From positions 1,046,082 through 1,110,081 of the forward strand of contig NZ_JDTH01000002.1 in the NCBI RefSeq assembly GCF_000710615.1: a stretch of DNA of 64,000 nt, given 5' to 3'. The notes under the pieces are model-generated. The model did not search any database. It was not told the DNA's origin and worked only from the letters and a program-made list of their open reading frames with translations. The first letter of the stretch is position 1; the number at the start of each line of letters is the position of its first letter. Source of the DNA: Haladaptatus cibarius D43 (GTDB lineage Archaea; Halobacteriota; Halobacteria; Halobacteriales; Haladaptataceae). Made by a program: the position numbers and the translations under genes. Below, piece by piece: positions 10,671-19,452 of this stretch.

Positions 10671-10681
10671 TAACCTAACCT
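10671..10681 (+). repeat. Left copy of 11-bp repeat flanking the element
   Basis: TAACCTAACCT recurs exactly at 19442-19452. The sequence after it (TTCTTT, C, G, TACT) is also partly shared. It is a candidate duplicated target or attachment core. Confidence 0.45.
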
Positions 10682-10728
10682 GTTCTTTGCACGAAATACT
10701 ATAAACAAACGTGCACTCAGTAGGAGTG

Positions 10729-11247
10729 TCATGTCGAACGGAGTCGATTTCCAAGGATTCGACCGAGAGTTCCGCGCCGAGCTCCACCAGCGGTGAGGTA
10801 ATCCAGATGCTTGCGTTGACGCTCGTTCAAATCGGGTGACGGACTCTGGGTGACCTCGTTTTCGACGTGATGTGTCTCCGGCTCTTTTTCCATCTTCCCA
10901 CGGTCGAACAGCCAGTCATTCCGCGACTCGACCGCCCGGACGACGCCACGGTAATCGTCCTGTTCGAGCAACCCCTCAATGGCAGTTCTGTAGATCGACT
11001 CGGTGAATGCGTCGGCCCGTGTTTCGCTGATGGCATCGACGATGTACTCGCGAAGTCGGTCGATGTCTTGGGAGATCTGTGACTGAGAGACGTCGTAGCG
11101 TTCGCCAAGTCGAGTTTGGTTGACCGCTCGTGGATGGTTCGCCCGCTCGATAATTTGGAGGATTTCTGCCCGGCGCTGTTGCCAACTATACTCGTCGGGT
11201 GGCGTGTCCTCGGGGACAGTTATCACTCTGTAATCGATGTCTCCCAT
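10729..11247 (-). CDS. DNA-binding protein, small-terminase-like
   Basis: The 172-residue protein has a helix-turn-helix at about residues 24-70 (RRAEILQIIER, then RLGERYDVSQSQISQDIDRLREYI) and a helical middle. The tail segment LNERQRKHLDYLT matches the tail of the other small-terminase-like protein encoded at 12507-13130. After that point the sequence turns basic (GGARRGTLGRILGNR), probably because the frame runs past the element border, so the original C-terminus is lost. Its position after a methyltransferase and HNH gene fits the packaging module of a tailed halovirus. The large terminase that would be expected next is missing. Confidence 0.6.
   Translation of the reverse strand: MGDIDYRVITVPEDTPPDEYSWQQRRAEILQIIERANHPRAVNQTRLGERYDVSQSQISQDIDRLREYIVDAISETRADAFTESIYRTAIEGLLEQDDYRGVVRAVESRNDWLFDRGKMEKEPETHHVENEVTQSPSPDLNERQRKHLDYLTAGGARRGTLGRILGNRLRST
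10731..10796 (+). pseudogene. Possible 5' stump of a host gene at the element edge
   Basis: A 21-codon frame starts at ATG 10731, about 30 nt after a good TATA box (ACTATAAAC, 10698-10706), and ends at a TGA at the presumed element border. Its codons have normal haloarchaeal composition. It could be the start of a cox-cluster gene destroyed by the insertion. The identity is not recognised. Confidence 0.3.
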
Positions 11248-11274
11248 GCAGATTCCTCGAAGTATAAGTGAGTA

Positions 11275-11706
11275 TTAGTCGTCGTCCGCAATGGTCTGGT
11301 TGACAGACGCGGTCATCTGACGCTTTGCCTCGCGGATTCGACGCTCAATGATTGGCTTATAGGCCCCCTCCTCGTCTAATTCAAACCCGACAAAGTTCCG
11401 CTCGTTCTGGATTGCCGCGACCGCGGTCGTCCCCGACCCCATAAATGGGTCAAGGATGAGTTCGCCTTCTGTTGTCGTGTATTTGAGCGCTTTCTCAACG
11501 AGGCTTGTAGAAAACGGCGCCGGATGTTTTCCGTAGTCGCCTTGATTATCTATGGCCGCATCGTTAACATCCCAGACACTCGGTGCTTTCAGATGTTTGA
11601 GTTCTGATTGCTCTTCTGAGTAGTGATAGATTGGTTCCCAGTCCCGCTGGAATTGCCCTCCTGCTGGAAGGTAGGGACGATGATACTGGTCTTTTTTTCC
11701 AAACAA
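11275..11706 (-). CDS. DNA methyltransferase, C-terminal part (frameshifted from the gene at 11564-12514)
   Basis: This frame holds the second half of an N4/N6 (PF01555-type) DNA methyltransferase: SAM-binding motif DPFMGSGTT followed by RNFVGFELDEE and the final helix. It joins the frame of 11564-12514 in the A7 run at 11692-11698. With six A residues the two would be one protein of about 412 residues. The TTG at 11706 that could start this frame has no promoter support, so independent translation is doubtful. Motif I alone cannot methylate DNA. Confidence 0.7.
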   Translation of the reverse strand: MFGKKDQYHRPYLPAGGQFQRDWEPIYHYSEEQSELKHLKAPSVWDVNDAAIDNQGDYGKHPAPFSTSLVEKALKYTTTEGELILDPFMGSGTTAVAAIQNERNFVGFELDEEGAYKPIIERRIREAKRQMTASVNQTIADDD

Positions 11707-12514
11707 TCACAGAACGGAGCGGAAGCCCGACAAGGTCATGTACCCAGTCGTGTTTTTCCATCTTCCCCTCACCGTATCGCTGATCAAGATTGATGAATAT
11801 GTGCCCATCGGGCTTCGTGACCCTCACCAGTTCCGAGAACACTGCACCAAGGAACTCGCGGAACTCCTTTTCTGTCCGGTCGTCGGTATAAGCGACTGCT
11901 TCCGATTTTCTGTCCCCTGATTGAGTCTTCTCAACGTTATATGGTGGACTGGTGAACACCATGTCAACACTATCATCTTCTAGATGCTCTTGCATCCCAT
12001 CGATACAGTCCATGAAATGGACATCATGTTCTACGTCATACTCGTATGCAATTGAACTACTCTTATTGACGCGAATTTCCGCAAGGAGGTCATCCAGATC
12101 CTCGTCAGCCGCGTCCGTGAGGTCGGCAACCGCATCGCTTTTGCCGTTGTTCAGGAGGTAATCGTATTCAAGCGCATCACGCTTTTTGTCGTGTTCGCCC
12201 CGATTCTTGTTCATCTCCTGTCGCCAGAGACGACGGTCTGCTTCGTCGATGTTGAACTGCCGGACGGGGACTTCTGCAAGGCCTAGCTCTTGTGCCGCTC
12301 GCCAGCGGTGTTCCCCGTCCGCGATGACACCGTCGGTGTTTGTCAGAATTGGCCCGCCCAGCCAGCCCTCCGACCGCATTCGGTCGATGAGTAGGCCGAA
12401 CTGTTCGTCCGACATCTCATTTGGATTGTCGCCGTCTGTTTCGAGGTCGTCTACCGGTACTGTCCCCTCAAATTCGGGTTGAGGGAGGTCTTCGAGGGAT
12501 AGGTCGTCACTCAT
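11564..12514 (-). CDS. ParB-like domain fused to DNA methyltransferase N-terminal half (frameshifted)
   Basis: Residues about 15-95 form a ParB/Srx-like domain with the signature DGEHRWRAA (66-74). Residues 160-272 are the first half of a methyltransferase of the circular-permuted type, with catalytic motif TSPPYN (188-193), the version seen in N4-cytosine and some N6-adenine enzymes. After VIVWKK the frame slips and adds 42 unrelated residues. The rest of the enzyme, with the SAM-binding motif, is in 11275-11706. ParB-methyltransferase fusions occur in phages and proviruses, where they protect viral DNA. The ATG overlaps the stop of the upstream gene (ATGA), suggesting coupled translation. 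Confidence 0.75.
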   Translation of the reverse strand: MSDDLSLEDLPQPEFEGTVPVDDLETDGDNPNEMSDEQFGLLIDRMRSEGWLGGPILTNTDGVIADGEHRWRAAQELGLAEVPVRQFNIDEADRRLWRQEMNKNRGEHDKKRDALEYDYLLNNGKSDAVADLTDAADEDLDDLLAEIRVNKSSSIAYEYDVEHDVHFMDCIDGMQEHLEDDSVDMVFTSPPYNVEKTQSGDRKSEAVAYTDDRTEKEFREFLGAVFSELVRVTKPDGHIFINLDQRYGEGKMEKHDWVHDLVGLPLRSVIVWKKRPVSSSLPSSRRAIPAGLGTNLSLLRRAIRTQTSESTECLGC

Positions 12515-13130
12515 CGGTGTCTCCGTTATCGTGGTGTTCGGTTCCGCTTCCAGCTTCGCCGGTCAGTTTATCGAGGTGCGCGCGCTGCTGCTCGGTCAGT
12601 TCGTGCTGGTGATCGTGGGTGTGCGTGTGGTCGCCGTTGACTTCGAGGGTGTATTCCTCGGGCGGCGTCAGTCTGAATTTGTCACAGATATTCTCGTATC
12701 GACGGAGGAATCGCGGGTCGCCGCTTCGGTCGAACTGCATGAGACAGCGGGCCGCCGCAGTCTGGGCAACTTCCTGCGTGCCTTCCGGCGACCCAAGTAG
12801 CTCTTTCGCGTCGTCGAAGGCATCGCGTTCTTCGTCGGTCAGGTGGCGGGTGAAGTGTTTGGAAAATGCACCGTGCGAAACGGCGTTCTCGTTTCCTTCC
12901 GGTGCCCCCGCTCCGTCTCTCTCGCCACCGTTTCCACCGCCGTGATTTGACCACCTCCCTTCGGTGACATCGGGGCCTAAGCCCCAGCCTTCGGGCTGGC
13001 CGCAGTAGCCCTCAAAGATGACCTCGTCGTCTTCGTTCTTCGAGATTCGCTTGCCGTTGCAGGTGCCGTCGGGAGGGATTGTCGGGACATTTTCCGATAA
13101 GTTCCCGACCAACTCTGATTCGTCTTCCAT
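12507..13130 (-). CDS. Phage-type protein, small-terminase-like
   Basis: The 207-residue protein starts at ATG 13130. An in-frame extension upstream is less acidic and overlaps an HNH remnant. Features are a CNGKR...YCGQPEGWG cysteine pair, a GNENAVSHGAFSK motif like the opening of many phage small terminase subunits, a helical acidic core, a His-rich tract THTHDHQH, and a tail LTEQQRAHLDKLT shared with 10729-11247. It would bind viral DNA and hand it to the large terminase (inference). The next gene, the ParB-methyltransferase, overlaps its stop codon. Confidence 0.6.
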   Translation of the reverse strand: MEDESELVGNLSENVPTIPPDGTCNGKRISKNEDDEVIFEGYCGQPEGWGLGPDVTEGRWSNHGGGNGGERDGAGAPEGNENAVSHGAFSKHFTRHLTDEERDAFDDAKELLGSPEGTQEVAQTAAARCLMQFDRSGDPRFLRRYENICDKFRLTPPEEYTLEVNGDHTHTHDHQHELTEQQRAHLDKLTGEAGSGTEHHDNGDTDE

Positions 13131-13155
13131 GGGTTGATTGATTTGAAAATGGGAA

Positions 13156-13428
13156 TTACGGGCCGAGTCCACTCGCGCTGGGAGACGAAAGACGACCACT
13201 GGACGGGATCGGCGGGTCGAACGCAGACCGGACGGAGCGACCGTCGCGACCGTGCCGGGCGATGAGGTGACAGCGTCGGCACGTCGCGGTGAGGTTGTCG
13301 TCGTTGCTGTTGTTCCGATTCCGGTCGCGGTGATGGACTTCTATCTGTGAGACTTCGTCGGCCGAGCGTCCAGCGCTGGCTTGAACAGTTTGTGCATTAC
13401 TATAATCAGCAGAGACCGGCCCAATATC
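13156..13428 (-). pseudogene. HNH endonuclease remnant
   Basis: This open frame of 90 codons has no usable start codon. It carries a clear HNH core, VHHRDRNRNNSNDDNLTATCRRCH, with the His-His pair, the Asn and the second zinc CxxC. The first zinc knuckle is missing: the position before GRSADE reads QASA, without Cys. The 5' end runs into AT-rich island DNA. HNH nucleases often sit beside terminase genes in tailed viruses and assist packaging. The gene was probably truncated when the island arrived. Confidence 0.6.
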
Positions 13429-13560
13429 TCAACAGCCGAACATCTGTCGAGAAGAAACTAAACTAGACAGTGCCATACTTATGGTATATTTACAAAGATT
13501 CAAATTAGTAGAGGATATATAATAGTATTTTAGAAATTGGGATAAACCCGAAGTGAACTA

Positions 13561-13929
13561 CTATGCTGCGTTTTCAGCACTCATAGACTCATAGGTGACT
13601 CCAAAGGCCCACATTGTAATCATCCCACCAAAGGTTAATAATGATATGCTAACACGAAGTGACTGCTGAAGTGGGAGAGTCGGACTGATACCAACGAGAG
13701 AAACGAACAGAAGGAATCCCGTGCCAACCCCACCCATAATTGCAGTACGTTGGTTTGTTGAATCGTCATACAAAAGTTTAGGCTGTGAAATTAAAAGATA
13801 TACCCCACTTGTATATACAATTGCACATGCGATCGCAAGTATGAAATCTGGATAGAGAAATTTATGGGTTGTACCTCCGATAAGAATACCTATTGTAGCA
13901 GATAATACAGTTTTCCTCAATTTTTCCAT
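13561..13929 (-). CDS. Small four-helix membrane protein, possible halocin immunity or accessory factor
   Basis: The 122-residue protein has four predicted membrane helices (about 7-22, 29-47, 64-82, 91-112), short loops and few charged residues. It has AT-rich codons like the halocin gene and unlike the surrounding element. It is divergent from the halocin precursor, about 400 bp away in the same island. Small membrane proteins commonly give immunity beside bacteriocin genes, so that role is a reasonable guess. No family was recognised, and the known halocin C8 immunity function lies in the precursor itself. Confidence 0.55.
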   Translation of the reverse strand: MEKLRKTVLSATIGILIGGTTHKFLYPDFILAIACAIVYTSGVYLLISQPKLLYDDSTNQRTAIMGGVGTGFLLFVSLVGISPTLPLQQSLRVSISLLTFGGMITMWAFGVTYESMSAENAA

Positions 13930-13942
13930 AGTGAGAACAACA

Positions 13943-14116
13943 CTATGTGTTGATAAAATTCTTCTGATTGGGAACGGTCAAAGGTTTGAATGTGAGCGTG
14001 AATTCTCGAAGCGACGATACACACTCCACAATCACATCGTCCTGCTCTGTCCCAAAATCCGGAGGAACACGACCCACCGGACACTTCCCAACGAACTCAT
14101 ACAATGACAAAGAATA
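13943..14116 (-). pseudogene. Degraded open frame upstream of the membrane protein
   Basis: A 57-codon frame without ATG (TTG possible) reads like a real acidic protein, for example YEFVGKCPVGRVPPDFGTEQ and VIVECVSSLREF. An overlapping frame further upstream (ATG 14205, MPLWSGKKFRC...LLLESVLESSGHD) looks like its displaced N-terminal half. Together they suggest one small gene broken by a frameshift. The family is unknown. Confidence 0.3.
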
Positions 14117-14290
14117 TCATGACCAGATGATTCGAGTACTGACTCGAGAAGAAGAGTTCTCTCGCCCATTAAACACCGAAATTTCTTGCCACTCCACAAG
14201 GGCATGGACACTGGGTTAGTTACTGGTACAGTAAAATAGTATAATAGTAATTAAACTAAAACAAACTATGAGACTGAATAACATAACTAG

Positions 14291-14306
14291 ATATAAATAA
14301 ATTTAA
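14291..14306 (+). promoter_or_regulatory. TATA region of the halocin-like gene
   Basis: Overlapping TATAAATA and TTTAAA elements lie 27-41 nt upstream of ATG 14333. The more upstream ATG at 14312 would be too close, which favours 14333 as the start. Confidence 0.45.
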
Positions 14307-14332
14307 AAAGAATGAATGTATTTTTGAACTTG

Positions 14333-15250
14333 ATGTCAAAAGATATTCCAAACGGAATGAGTAGAAGACAATATATGAAGAGTGCTAGTATCGCAGGAGC
14401 TAGCGCTATTGCTCCCGCATCTGCGAAATCAGTCTCGCAGAGAAAGGAGGTTGAAGTAAATCAACTACGGGAAAAGAAAGCAAGTAAAACTCTCTCTATC
14501 GCCGAGAATGACGACGAATTCCAAAATTTAATTGCGGGACTCAAAAAAGATGGGCGATCCATCAATTTATCAAAAAGTGATAAATCGGCTTACGAAATCG
14601 TTCAAAAGGTAGAGAAGACAGATCAGAAAAGCAGTTTCCGGATTGCATCATTCAACCTAGAAGACTCAAACTCAAACGAAACTATCGAAATCGCAGCCCG
14701 AATCCGAGATAATGATCAATCACACCGATTCAACCCATTCACATCGAATCTAATTGTAGAGCCGATGTGTTATGTACATAGAAATCCAGAGACGAACAAT
14801 AGTGGGGAAATTTCTACCCAGTCTACTCTCTCTCAGAAGGCGACAATTTATTTAGCGGATGGGAGCGGCCCAAGTATTGAGAGCGAGGCGATCAATGAGA
14901 CACACGAAACTATCAAAACTAAATATGGCTCTGTTAATAAATCGGAATATACTCTAAGTATAAATTCAAAAGACGGTGTTTCTATCCAAGGAGCAAACCC
15001 CATCTGTGGAGCAGCACCAGACATTTCTTGCAATGTCTGTATGGCGGCGATCGGTGTTACGAATGAAGGGATCTGTACCCTTGGCTCTGCTGCATACTGT
15101 GCGATTGCAACATCTCAAACAGTTATCGGACCAGTTGCGTGTGCGGGTCTATTCTTTGTTGTCTGTACTCTGCTGAACGTTACTGTCTGGAATCCAAAAG
15201 AAATCTGTAATGATATGTGTCTCTGTGAGGATGGGTGGATGCCCTGGTAG
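14333..15250 (+). CDS. Halocin C8-like bacteriocin precursor with Tat signal
   Basis: The precursor (305 residues from ATG 14333, 312 if the ATG at 14312 is used) has a twin-arginine signal, SRRQYMK plus a hydrophobic Ala-rich stretch. A hydrophilic middle of about 180 residues contains one Cys. The C-terminal domain of about 80 residues starts near GANPICG and contains exactly ten cysteines between hydrophobic segments. Halocin C8 is likewise released from the C-terminus of a Tat-exported precursor, has ten cysteines, and its N-terminal part acts as immunity protein. The overall architecture matches that family. Codons are AT-rich. No transporter or regulator of the known halocin C8 locus is nearby. 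Confidence 0.8.
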   Translation: MSKDIPNGMSRRQYMKSASIAGASAIAPASAKSVSQRKEVEVNQLREKKASKTLSIAENDDEFQNLIAGLKKDGRSINLSKSDKSAYEIVQKVEKTDQKSSFRIASFNLEDSNSNETIEIAARIRDNDQSHRFNPFTSNLIVEPMCYVHRNPETNNSGEISTQSTLSQKATIYLADGSGPSIESEAINETHETIKTKYGSVNKSEYTLSINSKDGVSIQGANPICGAAPDISCNVCMAAIGVTNEGICTLGSAAYCAIATSQTVIGPVACAGLFFVVCTLLNVTVWNPKEICNDMCLCEDGWMPW

Positions 15251-15372
15251 GTCTGGTTTGCCACGACAGATTCAACATCGTCCTCTGTCCACAACGGGTG
15301 CCAGTGTTCATCGAAGACTGTTCCTTCGACTATCTCTTCGCGGAACTCCCACCGGATTTTCTCGGGTATCAT
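15115..15372 (-). pseudogene. Truncated small gene at the right border of the AT-rich island
   Basis: From ATG 15372 (6 nt after the stop of the upstream gene) about 47 codons have acidic haloarchaeal composition (IRWEFREEIVEGTVFDEHWH, LWTEDDVESVVANQTY). At about 15245 the frame runs into the opposite strand of the halocin gene and turns into unrelated sequence. The island therefore removed its 3' end. The original function is not recognised. Confidence 0.5.
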
Positions 15373-15378
15373 TTGGAA

Positions 15379-16089
15379 TCATGCATCGTCGCTCGGTGGA
15401 AGCGCGGGCATCTCGTTCCACCCGCAGAACAAACATGAGTAGCCACTAACTGTCCACGGTGCATAGCAGTGACAATCCGGACAGCGCGGTGTGCCGTCGG
15501 CATCGACGAACGCACGACCGTCGTCGCCATGTTTCGGCTCTCGTTGGGATGGCGGATCTGGTATCTGTTGGAGGTCTTGGTACGAAAACGAAGACCGCGA
15601 GTGCGCCTGTTCGACGGCAAGTCGGAAGTTGTCGTCATCGCGACCGCCCCATTTGGGGAGTCGCTTCCGGTGAGCCACCGCGGCGACGAGCAGGTGCGGG
15701 TCGTGCGGGATACGCTTTCGCATGAGCTGAGCGGAGAGTTCCCACGCGACTTCGACGGCGTCGTCTTTCGCGAGAGGTCGCTGGGTATCGTGGAGCGACC
15801 CGCACTTGCACGCTCGCGGTGGGTTCTGTCCTTCGGTTCCTGCTTCTGGAACCGGCCGAGTCGTATCCATCGCCGGAACGTAGAAGCGGACGAGGCCCTT
15901 CGCTCGCTCGGCGGCATGTGAGTGCGGCAGGATGACGTGGCGATTATGCCGGAAGCAACTGTTGCAGATTTCGGGGTCGCGTTGGATCAGTTCGACGAAG
16001 ACGTTCTCTGGACGACGTTTTTTCGGCGGTGCGTGCTGGTCTTTTGGTTCCCACTGGTAGGCGGGACTCTGATTTTGGACGGAGGCCAT
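15379..16089 (-). CDS. Zinc-ribbon protein of haloarchaeal viruses/plasmids, function unknown
   Basis: The 236-residue protein starts at ATG 16089 (MASVQNQSP), where the acidic composition begins. It has three cysteine groups: EICNSCFR with nearby histidines (HVILPHSHAAERA), ACKCGSLHD, and a C-terminal ribbon CPDC...CLFCGWNE. The last group has the same layout as the 52-residue protein encoded at 16621-16779, which ends its ribbon in CVDCGWNAE. DNA or RNA binding is likely, but no catalytic motif is present. The gene lies between a winged-helix gene and the truncated gene at 15372. Confidence 0.6.
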   Translation of the reverse strand: MASVQNQSPAYQWEPKDQHAPPKKRRPENVFVELIQRDPEICNSCFRHNRHVILPHSHAAERAKGLVRFYVPAMDTTRPVPEAGTEGQNPPRACKCGSLHDTQRPLAKDDAVEVAWELSAQLMRKRIPHDPHLLVAAVAHRKRLPKWGGRDDDNFRLAVEQAHSRSSFSYQDLQQIPDPPSQREPKHGDDGRAFVDADGTPRCPDCHCYAPWTVSGYSCLFCGWNEMPALPPSDDA

Positions 16090-16160
16090 TGGTGGTTGAA
16101 TCCAGCAGACGCTCGACGTGTGGTGCGCCGATGTGGAGAAAAGCGTCGCTGGTGAGATGG

Positions 16161-16182
16161 CCTGCCCGTCCACGCGGGCAGG
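16161..16182. terminator. 8-bp hairpin between element genes
   Basis: CCTGCCCG (16161-16168) pairs with CGGGCAGG (16175-16182) around a 6-nt loop, between the winged-helix gene and the zinc-ribbon gene. It may be a terminator or 5' UTR structure. No U-tract follows. Confidence 0.3.
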
Positions 16183-16223
16183 GGTTATCCTCTTCTTAGT
16201 GACTCTGTCGGCATAGGCTTTAC

Positions 16224-16478
16224 TTAGATTTCGTCAGAATCGTCAGCGAGTCTGTAATTCTGGCGCGGTCGCTCACCCCGCTTCGGGATGGCAATTACTG
16301 TCTCCAGACGCCACTTTTCGGCAAGATTACGACAACGTTCGAATATGTTACTGCGACTGGCTTCGAGTTCGTCGGCAATATCTGTTGGATGTGCGCCGGG
16401 CTGAGATTCGTCTGCCGGGTCATCGAGCTTATCAACAGCGGCGAGGATTTCGTCGTCAGGGATTCTTGAGCGTGGCAT
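16224..16478 (-). CDS. Winged-helix DNA-binding protein of the element
   Basis: The 84-residue protein starts MPRSRIPDDEILAAVDKL and carries a winged helix-turn-helix: HPTDIADELEASRSNIFERCRNLAEKWRLE, then a basic wing IPKRGERPRQNYRLA. This type serves as repressor or control protein in haloarchaeal viruses and plasmids. Its ATG overlaps the stop of the preceding 48-codon gene (TAATG), so the two are probably translated together. The repeated TTATGCGA motif near 19390-19444 is a possible binding site (speculative). Confidence 0.65.
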   Translation of the reverse strand: MPRSRIPDDEILAAVDKLDDPADESQPGAHPTDIADELEASRSNIFERCRNLAEKWRLETVIAIPKRGERPRQNYRLADDSDEI

Positions 16479-16624
16479 TAGCGGTTGATGTCCGTTGGTC
16501 GGATGCGTTTCAGTTCGACCAGTTCGCCGTTGGGCGCTCGAATGGCAACAACGCGGTCGGGGTCGTCGTCGATGGTCTGGAGTGGTGCGCCGAGAACGAA
16601 CTCCGTTGGCAGGTTGACGGTCAT
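16478..16624 (-). CDS. Small element protein, 48 residues
   Basis: It starts at ATG 16624 (MTVNLPTEFVLGAPLQTI) and ends DINR. The composition is acidic and haloarchaeal, with a predicted beta-rich fold. It overlaps the end of the zinc-ribbon gene by 4 nt and its own stop overlaps the winged-helix start, so the three genes form a tightly coupled row. No motif or family was recognised. It could be a small regulator or accessory subunit. Confidence 0.5.
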   Translation of the reverse strand: MTVNLPTEFVLGAPLQTIDDDPDRVVAIRAPNGELVELKRIRPTDINR

Positions 16625-16779
16625 TCGTCCTCCGGGTCTGGTTTCCGGCGGCGATGCTTCTCGGCGTTCCACCCGCAATCGACACAGGCGCGAACGCCGC
16701 TGGATTCATTCATCGGAGCGAAGCCACCGCACTCCGGACAGGGGTCGGTCGTCGGGCAGTCGATGCTCGTATCGAACAT
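16621..16779 (-). CDS. Small zinc-ribbon protein, 52 residues
   Basis: The frame from ATG 16779 encodes one zinc ribbon, DPCPECGGFAPMN...RACVDCGWN, and a basic/acidic tail. It lies 2 nt downstream of the reconstructed end of the large DUF5817-type gene (stop at 16782) and overlaps the next small gene by 4 nt, so it belongs to the same transcription unit. The ribbon layout matches the C-terminus of the protein at 15379-16089. It is probably nucleic acid or protein binding. Confidence 0.55.
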   Translation of the reverse strand: MFDTSIDCPTTDPCPECGGFAPMNESSGVRACVDCGWNAEKHRRRKPDPEDE

Positions 16780-16781
16780 CG

Positions 16782-17243
16782 TTATCGGTAGTCCTCCAGT
16801 GTTGTCGTGTTCGGGAGGTCGAACGCATCGTAATCCTGCCTCTCGTGTCGGGGTGAGGTTGCGCTCGCGGCACATCCGCTGGACGGCGGTCGCGTAGGCC
16901 GACCGGTCGTGGTCGGTAACGACCGGGATTTCAATCGCGAACTCCGGTGCATCGTCGCGAAGTTCATCAGGGGTTTGCAGTCGCTTCCGGAGTTGGTTGG
17001 CAAAGGCCGCCTTTTTGCTGTTGAACGCGCCGACGAACACCACGTTTCCGATGAGATTTCCGTAGGGTTCGTTTGCGTCAATCGACGGTGTGAGTGCCTC
17101 TTCTTGTTTGTCTTCGCGGGATTCGAACAACTGCCGATAGGCGCTGTGGTGTCCGTACCGCGACTGGATTGCAAGCCCGATTGCGAACGTCTTGTGGAGA
17201 TGAGTGGCGGCATGCACGGCGACGAGGCGAACGGCTACACAGC
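16782..17243 (-). pseudogene. Detached C-terminal part of the large DUF5817-type protein
   Basis: After the 68-bp duplication the original protein continues out of frame with LAIQSRYGHHSAYRQLF, LTPSIDANEPYGNLIGNVVF and further acidic sequence. Near the CCCC at 16850-16853 a second slip of one base is needed to reach the natural-looking end ERQDYDAFDLPNTTTLEDYR and the stop at 16782. Both breaks removed, the gene at 17235-19382 would encode roughly 890-900 residues. No start codon with support exists for this part, so it is probably not made. Confidence 0.6.
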
Positions 17244-17274
17244 CCCGATTGCGAACGTCTTGTGGAGATGAGTG
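17176..17274. repeat. 31-bp direct repeat making a 68-bp duplication
   Basis: An exact 31-bp sequence at 17176-17206 recurs at 17244-17274. The 68-bp offset is not a multiple of three and breaks the large gene. Both copies encode THLHKTFAIG. Confidence 0.85.
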
Positions 17275-19382
17275 CAGTCGGCATCGAAGTTCTGGGCGAA
17301 TTTCGGCAGGCGAACCTCGCGGGTCAGCCCGACGTCGTTCAGGTCGAGCAGGTGAACCATCGTTCCGGCCAGCCCGAGTGCTTCTCGGGTGATGACGCCG
17401 CGGAACTCGGCTTCCGAACACTCGAAGTCGCCGCGGTTGAGTCGCTTCGTCATATCGCAGAGGTGGTTCTCGGCGTCGCGGAGTTCGGCGATGTAGTCCG
17501 CACCGTCTTCGACGCGGTTCGGAAGATAGCCGAGACAGCGCGACGACCACAGGAAGTCGCGATGGTTTTCGACGAACTCGGCGAACTGCCCATCCTCGTC
17601 CAGTCGTTCTGGTGGGAGCACTCGGTTGAACGTCCGGGTGCTGGCTAACGCTCTTGCGATACACACCCAGAACTGCATGGGGCCATCGTACTCAGCAGAG
17701 ACTACCAAGTGGTCGCGGTCGGCGTCGTAGTACCAGCCCGGTTCGCCGCGGTCGTCCTTCTCTTGGAGCGGGTAATCGACGATACCGACCCCGTTTTCGG
17801 GGGCCGAGGCCACCGCACCGATTGCGTTCCACCGTGCCAGCCAGCCGATGCTGTGGTGGTGCGGAAGGCGGGTGCGATCGGTGTCGTCCTCTGGGGAGGG
17901 GGCCTCGTGTGTGCGCGTGTTTACACGGCTATCGTCTGACGGATTGCACACTTCGCTAAAGGCATCATCAAGTCGCCGCTGTTGTGCGATTTCGTCGTCT
18001 AACCAGTCGAGATACTGTTCGCCCGCTCGGAGCAGTTCGACGTGCTTGTTCTGGTCGGTGCCGAAATCTGCGGCCAACCCGAGTTCAATGATTCCCGCTT
18101 CGGACGAGGTACCGTGCAGACACTGCGACCGCCGCGATGGCGACAGTGACGCCGCAGAATCGAGAGCGCTGTACGAGAGGGTTTGACCGGACTCTGCTCG
18201 AAGCGCTCGAAGGATTCGAACCTGCGTGCTGTTCTGTCCCAGTTCCTCCCTTGCTCTTTCGACGCGCTTACCCACACTCTCAGGATGCTGTGTGTTGGAG
18301 TCGTAGCTAACAGGGAGTTTGTCGCGATGGTCGGCGAAGAGTCGTTGGTGGCGCAGACCACTTCCGACGAGCCGAACCGAACACCCTGCCGCGAGTTCGG
18401 CGAGATACTCGCAAACCATCTCGCGTTGTGAGCGGTCGAGGTTCCAGAACGACTCCGAGAGTCGAACGTCGATGGTCGGTTCCTCGTCGGACAGCGCGAG
18501 GAGGCGACCGACAACGAACGTATCCTCCAGTGACGACCGACCGTGACCGGTCAACCGGAGTCGGTCGATGAACGTTTCGACCGCGTCCGATGACCCTTTA
18601 GCAATCTGTGTAACGAGTCCAGGGAGGTTGCTGTCTTCGAGTTCGATACCCGCATCATCGAGGATCGCGGCAATCGTGAGGCTGTCTCTCTCCTCCGCAA
18701 TCTCACGAAGCACGTCTGCCAGCATTTCGCGGACGTGGTCGGTCTCAAGAACGGCCTTCGATATACTTGATAGCGGTTTATTGAGCGCGATGGTCGCGAC
18801 CGAATTGATTGGTGGCTGTTGAGTGAATGTCATCTCGCCCGCGATGCCAAGGTCGGGGACATCGACATCGAGGTCATCACTGCGTTCGAGATACTCCTCC
18901 AGTTCCTCGCGGAACGCGCCCATCCACCACTGACCAACTTCAGCGGCTTCTGCTTCGAACGCCGAATAGTACTCCGAAAACGCTTCCTTCGCTTCGTCGC
19001 TGAAGACCGCGTTCATCCGATCGTGATACTGCTCGTACTCCTCACCGAATGCGGAGTAGTACTCCGAAAAGGCCTCCTTCGCTTCCTGTTCGAGGAACTC
19101 GGCCTGTGTCTCGATGTCCTGCTGGATTCGAGTTTCAAGCGCGGCGTAGTTTTCGACGTTCTCGAAACGCTCTCGTTCCCCTGCTTTCTCGGCGAGGATT
19201 CTAGCGCGGACTTGCGCGGCGACCTCGCGCTCGTCGTGACTGAATCGGATTCGGAGCGTCTTCGCGTCGTGCTGGTGGCCGCAGAGCCGACACTGGGCCG
19301 TTTGTTGTTCGCGAACGTCTTCGACTAACCAGAAGCCGTGGCAGGTCGAACACCCGACGACGTTGTACGTCACGCCGGGCAC
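17235..19382 (-). CDS. Large zinc-ribbon protein of DUF5817 type, truncated by frameshift
   Basis: The 715-residue frame starts at GTG 19382 or at the GTG three codons later (VTYNVVGCSTC). The N-terminal ribbon CSTC...CRLCGHQH (C11, C14, C31, C34) is the DUF5817 hallmark. Residues 65-145 are a charged coiled coil with an exact repeat EAKEAFSEYYSAF at 100-112 and 130-142. The rest is a long helical region found in haloarchaeal plasmid and provirus proteins, ending with TMVHLLDL and LPKFAQNFD. Translation stops two residues after THLHKTFAIG because of a 68-bp duplication, so about 180 C-terminal residues are lost. A replication or maintenance role is possible but unproven. Confidence 0.65.
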   Translation of the reverse strand: MPGVTYNVVGCSTCHGFWLVEDVREQQTAQCRLCGHQHDAKTLRIRFSHDEREVAAQVRARILAEKAGERERFENVENYAALETRIQQDIETQAEFLEQEAKEAFSEYYSAFGEEYEQYHDRMNAVFSDEAKEAFSEYYSAFEAEAAEVGQWWMGAFREELEEYLERSDDLDVDVPDLGIAGEMTFTQQPPINSVATIALNKPLSSISKAVLETDHVREMLADVLREIAEERDSLTIAAILDDAGIELEDSNLPGLVTQIAKGSSDAVETFIDRLRLTGHGRSSLEDTFVVGRLLALSDEEPTIDVRLSESFWNLDRSQREMVCEYLAELAAGCSVRLVGSGLRHQRLFADHRDKLPVSYDSNTQHPESVGKRVERAREELGQNSTQVRILRALRAESGQTLSYSALDSAASLSPSRRSQCLHGTSSEAGIIELGLAADFGTDQNKHVELLRAGEQYLDWLDDEIAQQRRLDDAFSEVCNPSDDSRVNTRTHEAPSPEDDTDRTRLPHHHSIGWLARWNAIGAVASAPENGVGIVDYPLQEKDDRGEPGWYYDADRDHLVVSAEYDGPMQFWVCIARALASTRTFNRVLPPERLDEDGQFAEFVENHRDFLWSSRCLGYLPNRVEDGADYIAELRDAENHLCDMTKRLNRGDFECSEAEFRGVITREALGLAGTMVHLLDLNDVGLTREVRLPKFAQNFDADCTHLHKTFAIGAV

Positions 19383-19389
19383 CCCCTGT

Positions 19390-19444
19390 TATGCGAAGAT
19401 GTCGCATAGTCAGGCGATGATTTCCGACTCTCTCCGTCGCATAA
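19390..19444. promoter_or_regulatory. Triple TATGCGA motif upstream of the DUF5817-type gene
   Basis: TATGCGA (19390-19396) and its complement TCGCATA (19402-19408) form an inverted repeat around 5 nt, and TCGCATAA occurs again at 19437-19444. All lie within 62 nt upstream of the GTG start at 19382. The arrangement suggests an operator for an element-encoded regulator. Confidence 0.45.
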
Positions 19445-19452
19445 CCTAACCT
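19442..19452 (+). repeat. Right copy of 11-bp repeat flanking the element
   Basis: Identical to TAACCTAACCT at 10671-10681. It lies 30 nt before the coxA start, within its promoter region. Confidence 0.45.

Follow-up and report, generated by a model that had tools for sequence, protein, structure and literature searches.

Introduction

Halocin C8 is described in a review as the best characterised halocin, and in the literature consulted molecular characterisation covers halocin C8 itself and its close relatives (PMC11509114). The HalI part of its precursor confers immunity (PMC11509114; PMC8628083), while the protease acting on halocin C8 is unidentified (PMC12893001). Here we compare these systems with a locus in Haladaptatus cibarius D43, found in a stretch of 64,000 nucleotides that we call the window. 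An earlier note, made from the letters of the window, had read one of its open reading frames as a divergent, stand-alone precursor built on the halocin C8 plan.

Precursor Features and Homology

The reading frame is real and uninterrupted. An in-frame ATG at 14312 is an alternative start that would add seven residues (312 aa). The features of the gene and its immediate surroundings are as follows:

14333–15250, plus strand: halocin C8-like precursor, 305 aa (open reading frame list, homology)
14333–14425, plus strand: Tat signal peptide, residues 1–31, SRRQYMK ... APASA (read from the sequence)
14450–14710, plus strand: HalI-like part of the pro-region, residues 40–126, candidate immunity region (leave-out profile)
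15005–15226, plus strand: ten-cysteine C-terminal domain, C225 to C298 (sequence and alignments)
13250–15250, no strand: AT-rich cargo island, 42% G+C (G+C comparison)
13561–13929, minus strand: membrane protein of 122 aa with 3–4 transmembrane segments, oriented divergently to the precursor and a candidate for its dedicated immunity partner (homologue beside the precursor of genome G082)

What the earlier note had seen in the sequence was borne out. The twin-arginine motif S-R-R-Q-Y-M-K occupies residues 10–16 and is followed by a hydrophobic stretch ending in A-P-A-S-A (residue 31) and by a hydrophilic middle. There are eleven cysteines in total, one at residue 146 and, within the C-terminal 81 residues, exactly ten (225, 233, 236, 248, 256, 270, 278, 292, 296 and 298). 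With KD window values reaching 2.1, the cysteine domain is hydrophobic; it follows the hydrophilic pro-region and is acidic, with 1 K/R and 6 D/E in 86 residues; the predicted mature peptide has about 80–90 aa and ends at 15247. The AT-rich island is also real: host sequence on both sides has 59–60% G+C against 42% inside, and GC3 is 0.39 against 0.81 for coxA.

The halocin C8-like domain model, a search with which the note had proposed as a check, gave a divided answer. The NCBIfam profile TIGR04449 aligns with the precursor along its full length (1–69), but the 11.6 bits obtained are below the curated cut-off of 24 bits, and a search of the precursor's own genome with the profile gave no match at E ≤ 0.01. 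Family profiles built from 42–45 members with the window protein left out, also tried without its closest relatives, scored the precursor at 26–39 bits, while the best of 5000 shuffles of the C-terminus reached 13.5. The pro-region (residues 40–126) scored 27.0 bits against the family pro-region profile, and the best of 3000 shuffles 11.5. Both halves are therefore homologous to halocin C8-like precursors. Two relatives from the same haloarchaeal family match at E 5.5e-13 and 1.4e-12, and one in G082, itself above the TIGR04449 cut-off at 28.2 bits, at E 5.4e-6.

By homology of its cysteine domain and pro-region, the precursor is thus placed in the halocin C8-like superfamily; by the cut-off of the model it is outside the curated TIGR04449 family, to which the sequence comparisons connect it only via the intermediate G082 relative. 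The note's word “divergent” is apt. The branch of this precursor and halocin C8 share about 25% identity. Like ProC8 (HalI + HalC8) and TIGR04449 proteins, the precursor has a Tat signal, a hydrophilic pro-region with a HalI-like N-terminal motif and a C-terminal domain, about 80 aa long, whose ten cysteines include eight in shared columns. It differs from them in lacking C3 and C8 of the canonical numbering and having C225 and C296 instead, in the seven residues past its last cysteine, in its score under the curated cut-off, in the membrane protein encoded beside it and in its site within a provirus remnant. The precursors of G021 and G026 (L002/L003; same family of haloarchaea) share the ten-cysteine arrangement, including the equivalents of C225 and C296, and are 36–38% identical in the domain; they differ in their GC-rich context (62–64%) and in that no matching membrane partner was found within 1.8 kb.

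Across the genomes searched, 47 of 391 carry halocin C8-like members, a patchy distribution. A Pfam search gave nothing convincing, PHROGs had no match for the precursor or for the 122-aa membrane protein, and no relatives of the precursor were found in phage or plasmid records or IMG/VR contigs by scans sensitive to close relatives only. An Amycolatopsis stretch from the genome-contig scan was rejected as a chance match, no open reading frame there fitting the family profile. In the G082 precursor (L039 7594–8418) there is no ATG, GTG or TTG upstream of the twin-arginine motif, and its start is therefore unclear or broken.

Cysteine Plan

The note had also proposed aligning the ten cysteines with known members, and here its halocin C8 plan stood only in part: homology of both halves, Tat signal and overall layout agree, but the cysteine plan does not. 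Eight of the ten cysteines fall in canonical columns. C3 (first cysteine in VC-x2-GC) and C8 (in the GC ahead of the last helix) are missing, and the non-canonical C225 and C296, common to G021 and G026, are present. The G082 relative also lacks C3 and C8, with no replacement, leaving eight cysteines. Other TIGR04449 members depart from the ten columns too, so the canonical arrangement is not demanded by the curated model.

Joint loss of cysteines was counted over 70 distinct homologues. C3 and C8 are both present in 59 and both absent in 11, with no discordant case; the corresponding numbers are 48, 21 and 1 for C4/C7, and 64, 5 and 1 for C1/C10. C5 was lost once, jointly with C6 (L108), whereas C6 is missing without loss of C5 in a few homologues, where C5 may instead pair with an additional cysteine that lies four residues beyond C6. 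No homologue varies at C2 or C9, and the 2-9 pair is assigned by elimination. When all 945 perfect pairings were scored, the nested set 1-10, 2-9, 3-8, 4-7, 5-6 was uniquely best, with 7 discordances (runner-up 9, median 65). A tree computed without any cysteine column places the changes of C3 and C8 on shared branches in 3 of 3 events and those of C4 and C7 in 5 of 5–6; these independent events are few, and the alignment was partly guided by the cysteines. From such patterns we infer that the cysteines of the halocin C8 family pair as this nested ladder.

In the precursor, the C3–C8 rung would be gone and replaced by an end rung. The new cysteines could pair as 225-298 with 233-296, or as 225-296 with 233-298; nesting favours the first, and our guess follows it. 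The nested reading of the disulfides would then be 225-298, 233-296, 236-292, 248-278 and 256-270.

A second cysteine rearrangement is seen in L042, L052, L055, L119, L120, L132 and others, which have lost C4 and C7 and gained other cysteines some four residues past each of C5 and C6.

Resemblance to Saposins

The nested plan recalls that of another group. Saposin-like proteins have a C-x2-C start, a C-x5-C end and nested disulfides (1-6, 2-5, 3-4). In the halocin C8-like family, the C-x2-C start is found in all 64 homologues having both cysteines, and the C-x5-C end is the most common form (31 of 65 counted; three more have an additional cysteine within it).

AlphaFold2 models show four helices at weak confidence (pLDDT 60 and 64). 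Foldseek lists five PDB matches for the model of the window protein, of which four are saposin-like (E 2.9–6.8), as are all eight entries listed by VIA-align (Z 2.7–4.5), and a viral saposin-like protein ranks second in BFVD (Foldseek, E 4.8); Foldseek gave no match under E 1 in either PDB or BFVD. For the canonical halocin C8-like domain, VIA-align lists a sole entry, NKR-5-3B (Z 4.1, rmsd 3.2, 59 residues), a circular bacteriocin of saposin-like fold (PMC7559574). None of these matches is significant by itself, and helical folds match easily.

A sequence search of the PDB found no solved structure related to the halocin C8-like domain. Membership in the saposin family was considered and ruled out, since no sequence homology is detectable by sequence profiles or by hhalign, which gave a probability of 0.9% against human saposins (sequences confirmed by matching saposin entries). 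For this reason only a resemblance is claimed: the halocin C8-like domain may fold like saposins. Compared with saposin-like proteins (saposins, SP-B, NK-lysin, amoebapore; circular bacteriocins such as enterocin NKR-5-3B), the domain is alike in the C-x2-C start, the C-x5-C end of its most common family form, the proposed nested pairing, the four-helix model and its best PDB matches. It differs in having five rungs rather than three, in being acidic and not cationic, and in the absence of detectable sequence homology. Our literature search found no report of the disulfide pairing of halocin C8 or of a resemblance to saposins.

Candidate Membrane Partner

The note had called the gene stand-alone, and this claim fell. 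A 34% identical homologue of the 122-aa membrane protein beside it (tblastn E 3.9e-12, phmmer E 4e-16) is encoded right after the precursor in G082, in a frame that opens 46 nt downstream, and in the window the precursor gene and the membrane gene are both cargo of a provirus remnant. The orientation differs, the membrane gene being divergent from the precursor in the window and downstream of it in G082. Beside the G021 and G026 precursors, no homologue of the membrane protein was found within 1.8 kb.

Clustering of neighbours by longest open reading frame was swamped by wrong-frame reading frames in GC-rich DNA, and a targeted test for membrane genes was used instead. A small membrane gene on the same strand lies within 200 nt downstream of 24 of the 66 testable precursors, as against 4 of 228 control genes at the same loci; the p-value of 6e-14 for this enrichment is too generous because some loci are related. 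The downstream membrane proteins are mostly not recognisably alike in sequence across the family. The simplest reading of the gene context is that the 122-aa protein would provide dedicated immunity; alternatively, it may be a helper in export or transport.

In G009, a weak homologue of the 122-aa protein (L167 7192–7743) adjoins an ABC transporter (ATPase and permease); no halocin precursor was found near it.

Provirus Remnant

Precursor and membrane gene lie within an integrated element with these parts:

10671–19452, no strand: provirus remnant, integrated, 8.77 kb from one repeat to the other (empty site in three congeners)
10671–10681, no strand: left direct repeat TAACCTAACCT, 11 bp (comparison with empty site)
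10729–11247, minus strand: phrog_15023 protein, with relatives close to the genome end in phiH and PhiCh1
11275–12514, minus strand: ParB-N6/N4 DNA methyltransferase, viral type, two overlapping reading frames with a frameshift
12507–13199, minus strand: terminase small subunit-like protein
16621–19382, minus strand: RepH-type replication protein, split over two reading frames (relative in ChaoS9)
19442–19452, no strand: right direct repeat TAACCTAACCT, 11 bp (comparison with empty site)

The insertion site is between a DUF6684 gene and coxA, and the congeners G005, G006 and G008 have the empty site, GAAGTCG-TAACCTAACCT-TTCTTTACC. The best relative of the RepH-type protein, in phage ChaoS9, is 100% covered and 34% identical. 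At the break of this gene an exact 31-nt direct repeat occurs at 17176–17206 and 17244–17274 (68 nt start to start), and in G009 a relative spans 1068 aa in a single intact frame. The examined stretches of the related RepH loci of G009, G017 and G032 contain nothing halocin-like. Neither an integrase nor a halocin transporter could be recognised in the 8.77-kb element. By its gene content, the element is a defective provirus of phiH/ChaoS9 type.

The precursor gene and the viral genes of the element are on opposite strands, as would be expected of late-acquired cargo; on the sequence, the halocin gene may have arrived together with the virus or later, into the remnant.

The proposed arrangement is like that of SSV9 B310 of a Sulfolobus spindle-shaped virus, a secreted toxin borne by an archaeal virus, with a small adjoining gene of three transmembrane segments and suggested self-immunity (PMC8628083). 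The two differ in that SSV9 is an intact chronic virus and the element here a remnant, and the likeness is one of arrangement, without shown homology.

Proposed Function and Alternatives

We consider it probable that the gene encodes a divergent, cysteine-rearranged relative of halocin C8, that is, the precursor of a killer peptide with a membrane partner, carried as provirus cargo. Export, cleavage, disulfide pairing, killing and immunity of this precursor are steps that we infer. It would be exported by the Tat route, and an extracellular protease would cut off the C-terminal 80–90 residues. The released peptide, acidic, hydrophobic, helical and disulfide-laddered, would damage the membranes of other haloarchaea. 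Self-protection would come probably from the N-terminal pro-region and from the neighbouring 122-aa membrane protein, a likely dedicated immunity or transport partner, and the two genes would travel as a pair in the defective provirus.

Saposins, the nearest folds, include lipid carriers without killing activity, and one may ask whether the product is a secreted cysteine-rich protein of the superfamily with another job, such as signalling, lipid binding or virus exclusion. Characterisation limited to halocin C8 and its close relatives (PMC11509114), from which this branch stands at about 25% identity, leaves some room for such a role. We nevertheless hold it to be unlikely, given the same precursor plan including the HalI-like pro-region, the small membrane partner gene, as expected for an immunity protein, and the patchy distribution among genomes.

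That the gene is a dead relic, a former halocin now without promoter, processing or partners in a decaying provirus, agrees with the split RepH and methyltransferase genes (cargo of a broken element may be decaying as well) and with the two missing canonical cysteines, but we judge it quite improbable, as the 305-aa frame, intact within the broken element, retains the Tat motif and ten cysteines, an even set, and as the exchange of C3 and C8 for C225 and C296, being common to G021 and G026, is older than any decay here.

Wider Implications and Family Observations

We tentatively propose, at somewhat less than even confidence, that the whole halocin C8 family may be an archaeal, disulfide-laddered counterpart of the saposin-like pore formers. 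Its nested five-rung ladder (1-10, 2-9, 3-8, 4-7, 5-6) would lose and gain rungs as units and would have slid by one rung in the branch of this precursor; many members would have a downstream membrane immunity protein, and haloviruses could carry the cassette. With such a protein encoded directly downstream in many members, immunity would not be confined to the precursor.

The paired loss of cysteines in 70 homologues yields a specific pairing for halocin C8 and its relatives that mass spectrometry can test. This pairing would tie halocins to a known membrane-active fold, and the analysis points to a candidate immunity protein. Carried in a head-tail provirus, a halocin cassette would give the haloarchaea a parallel to the toxins borne by Sulfolobus viruses.

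Two further observations concern the family at large. Halocin C8-like cysteine domains end proteins of 650–719 aa at L050 6461–8617, L107 5551–7671 and L099 7804–9753, possibly an arrangement like that of polymorphic toxins. A block of 1.2 kb containing a halocin C8-like gene is 97.7% identical in genomes of two families (L119 7704–8911 and L120 7949–9157) in differing surroundings, and a 31-bp sequence at its edge is found again at L119 10182–10212, which suggests a small mobile cassette.
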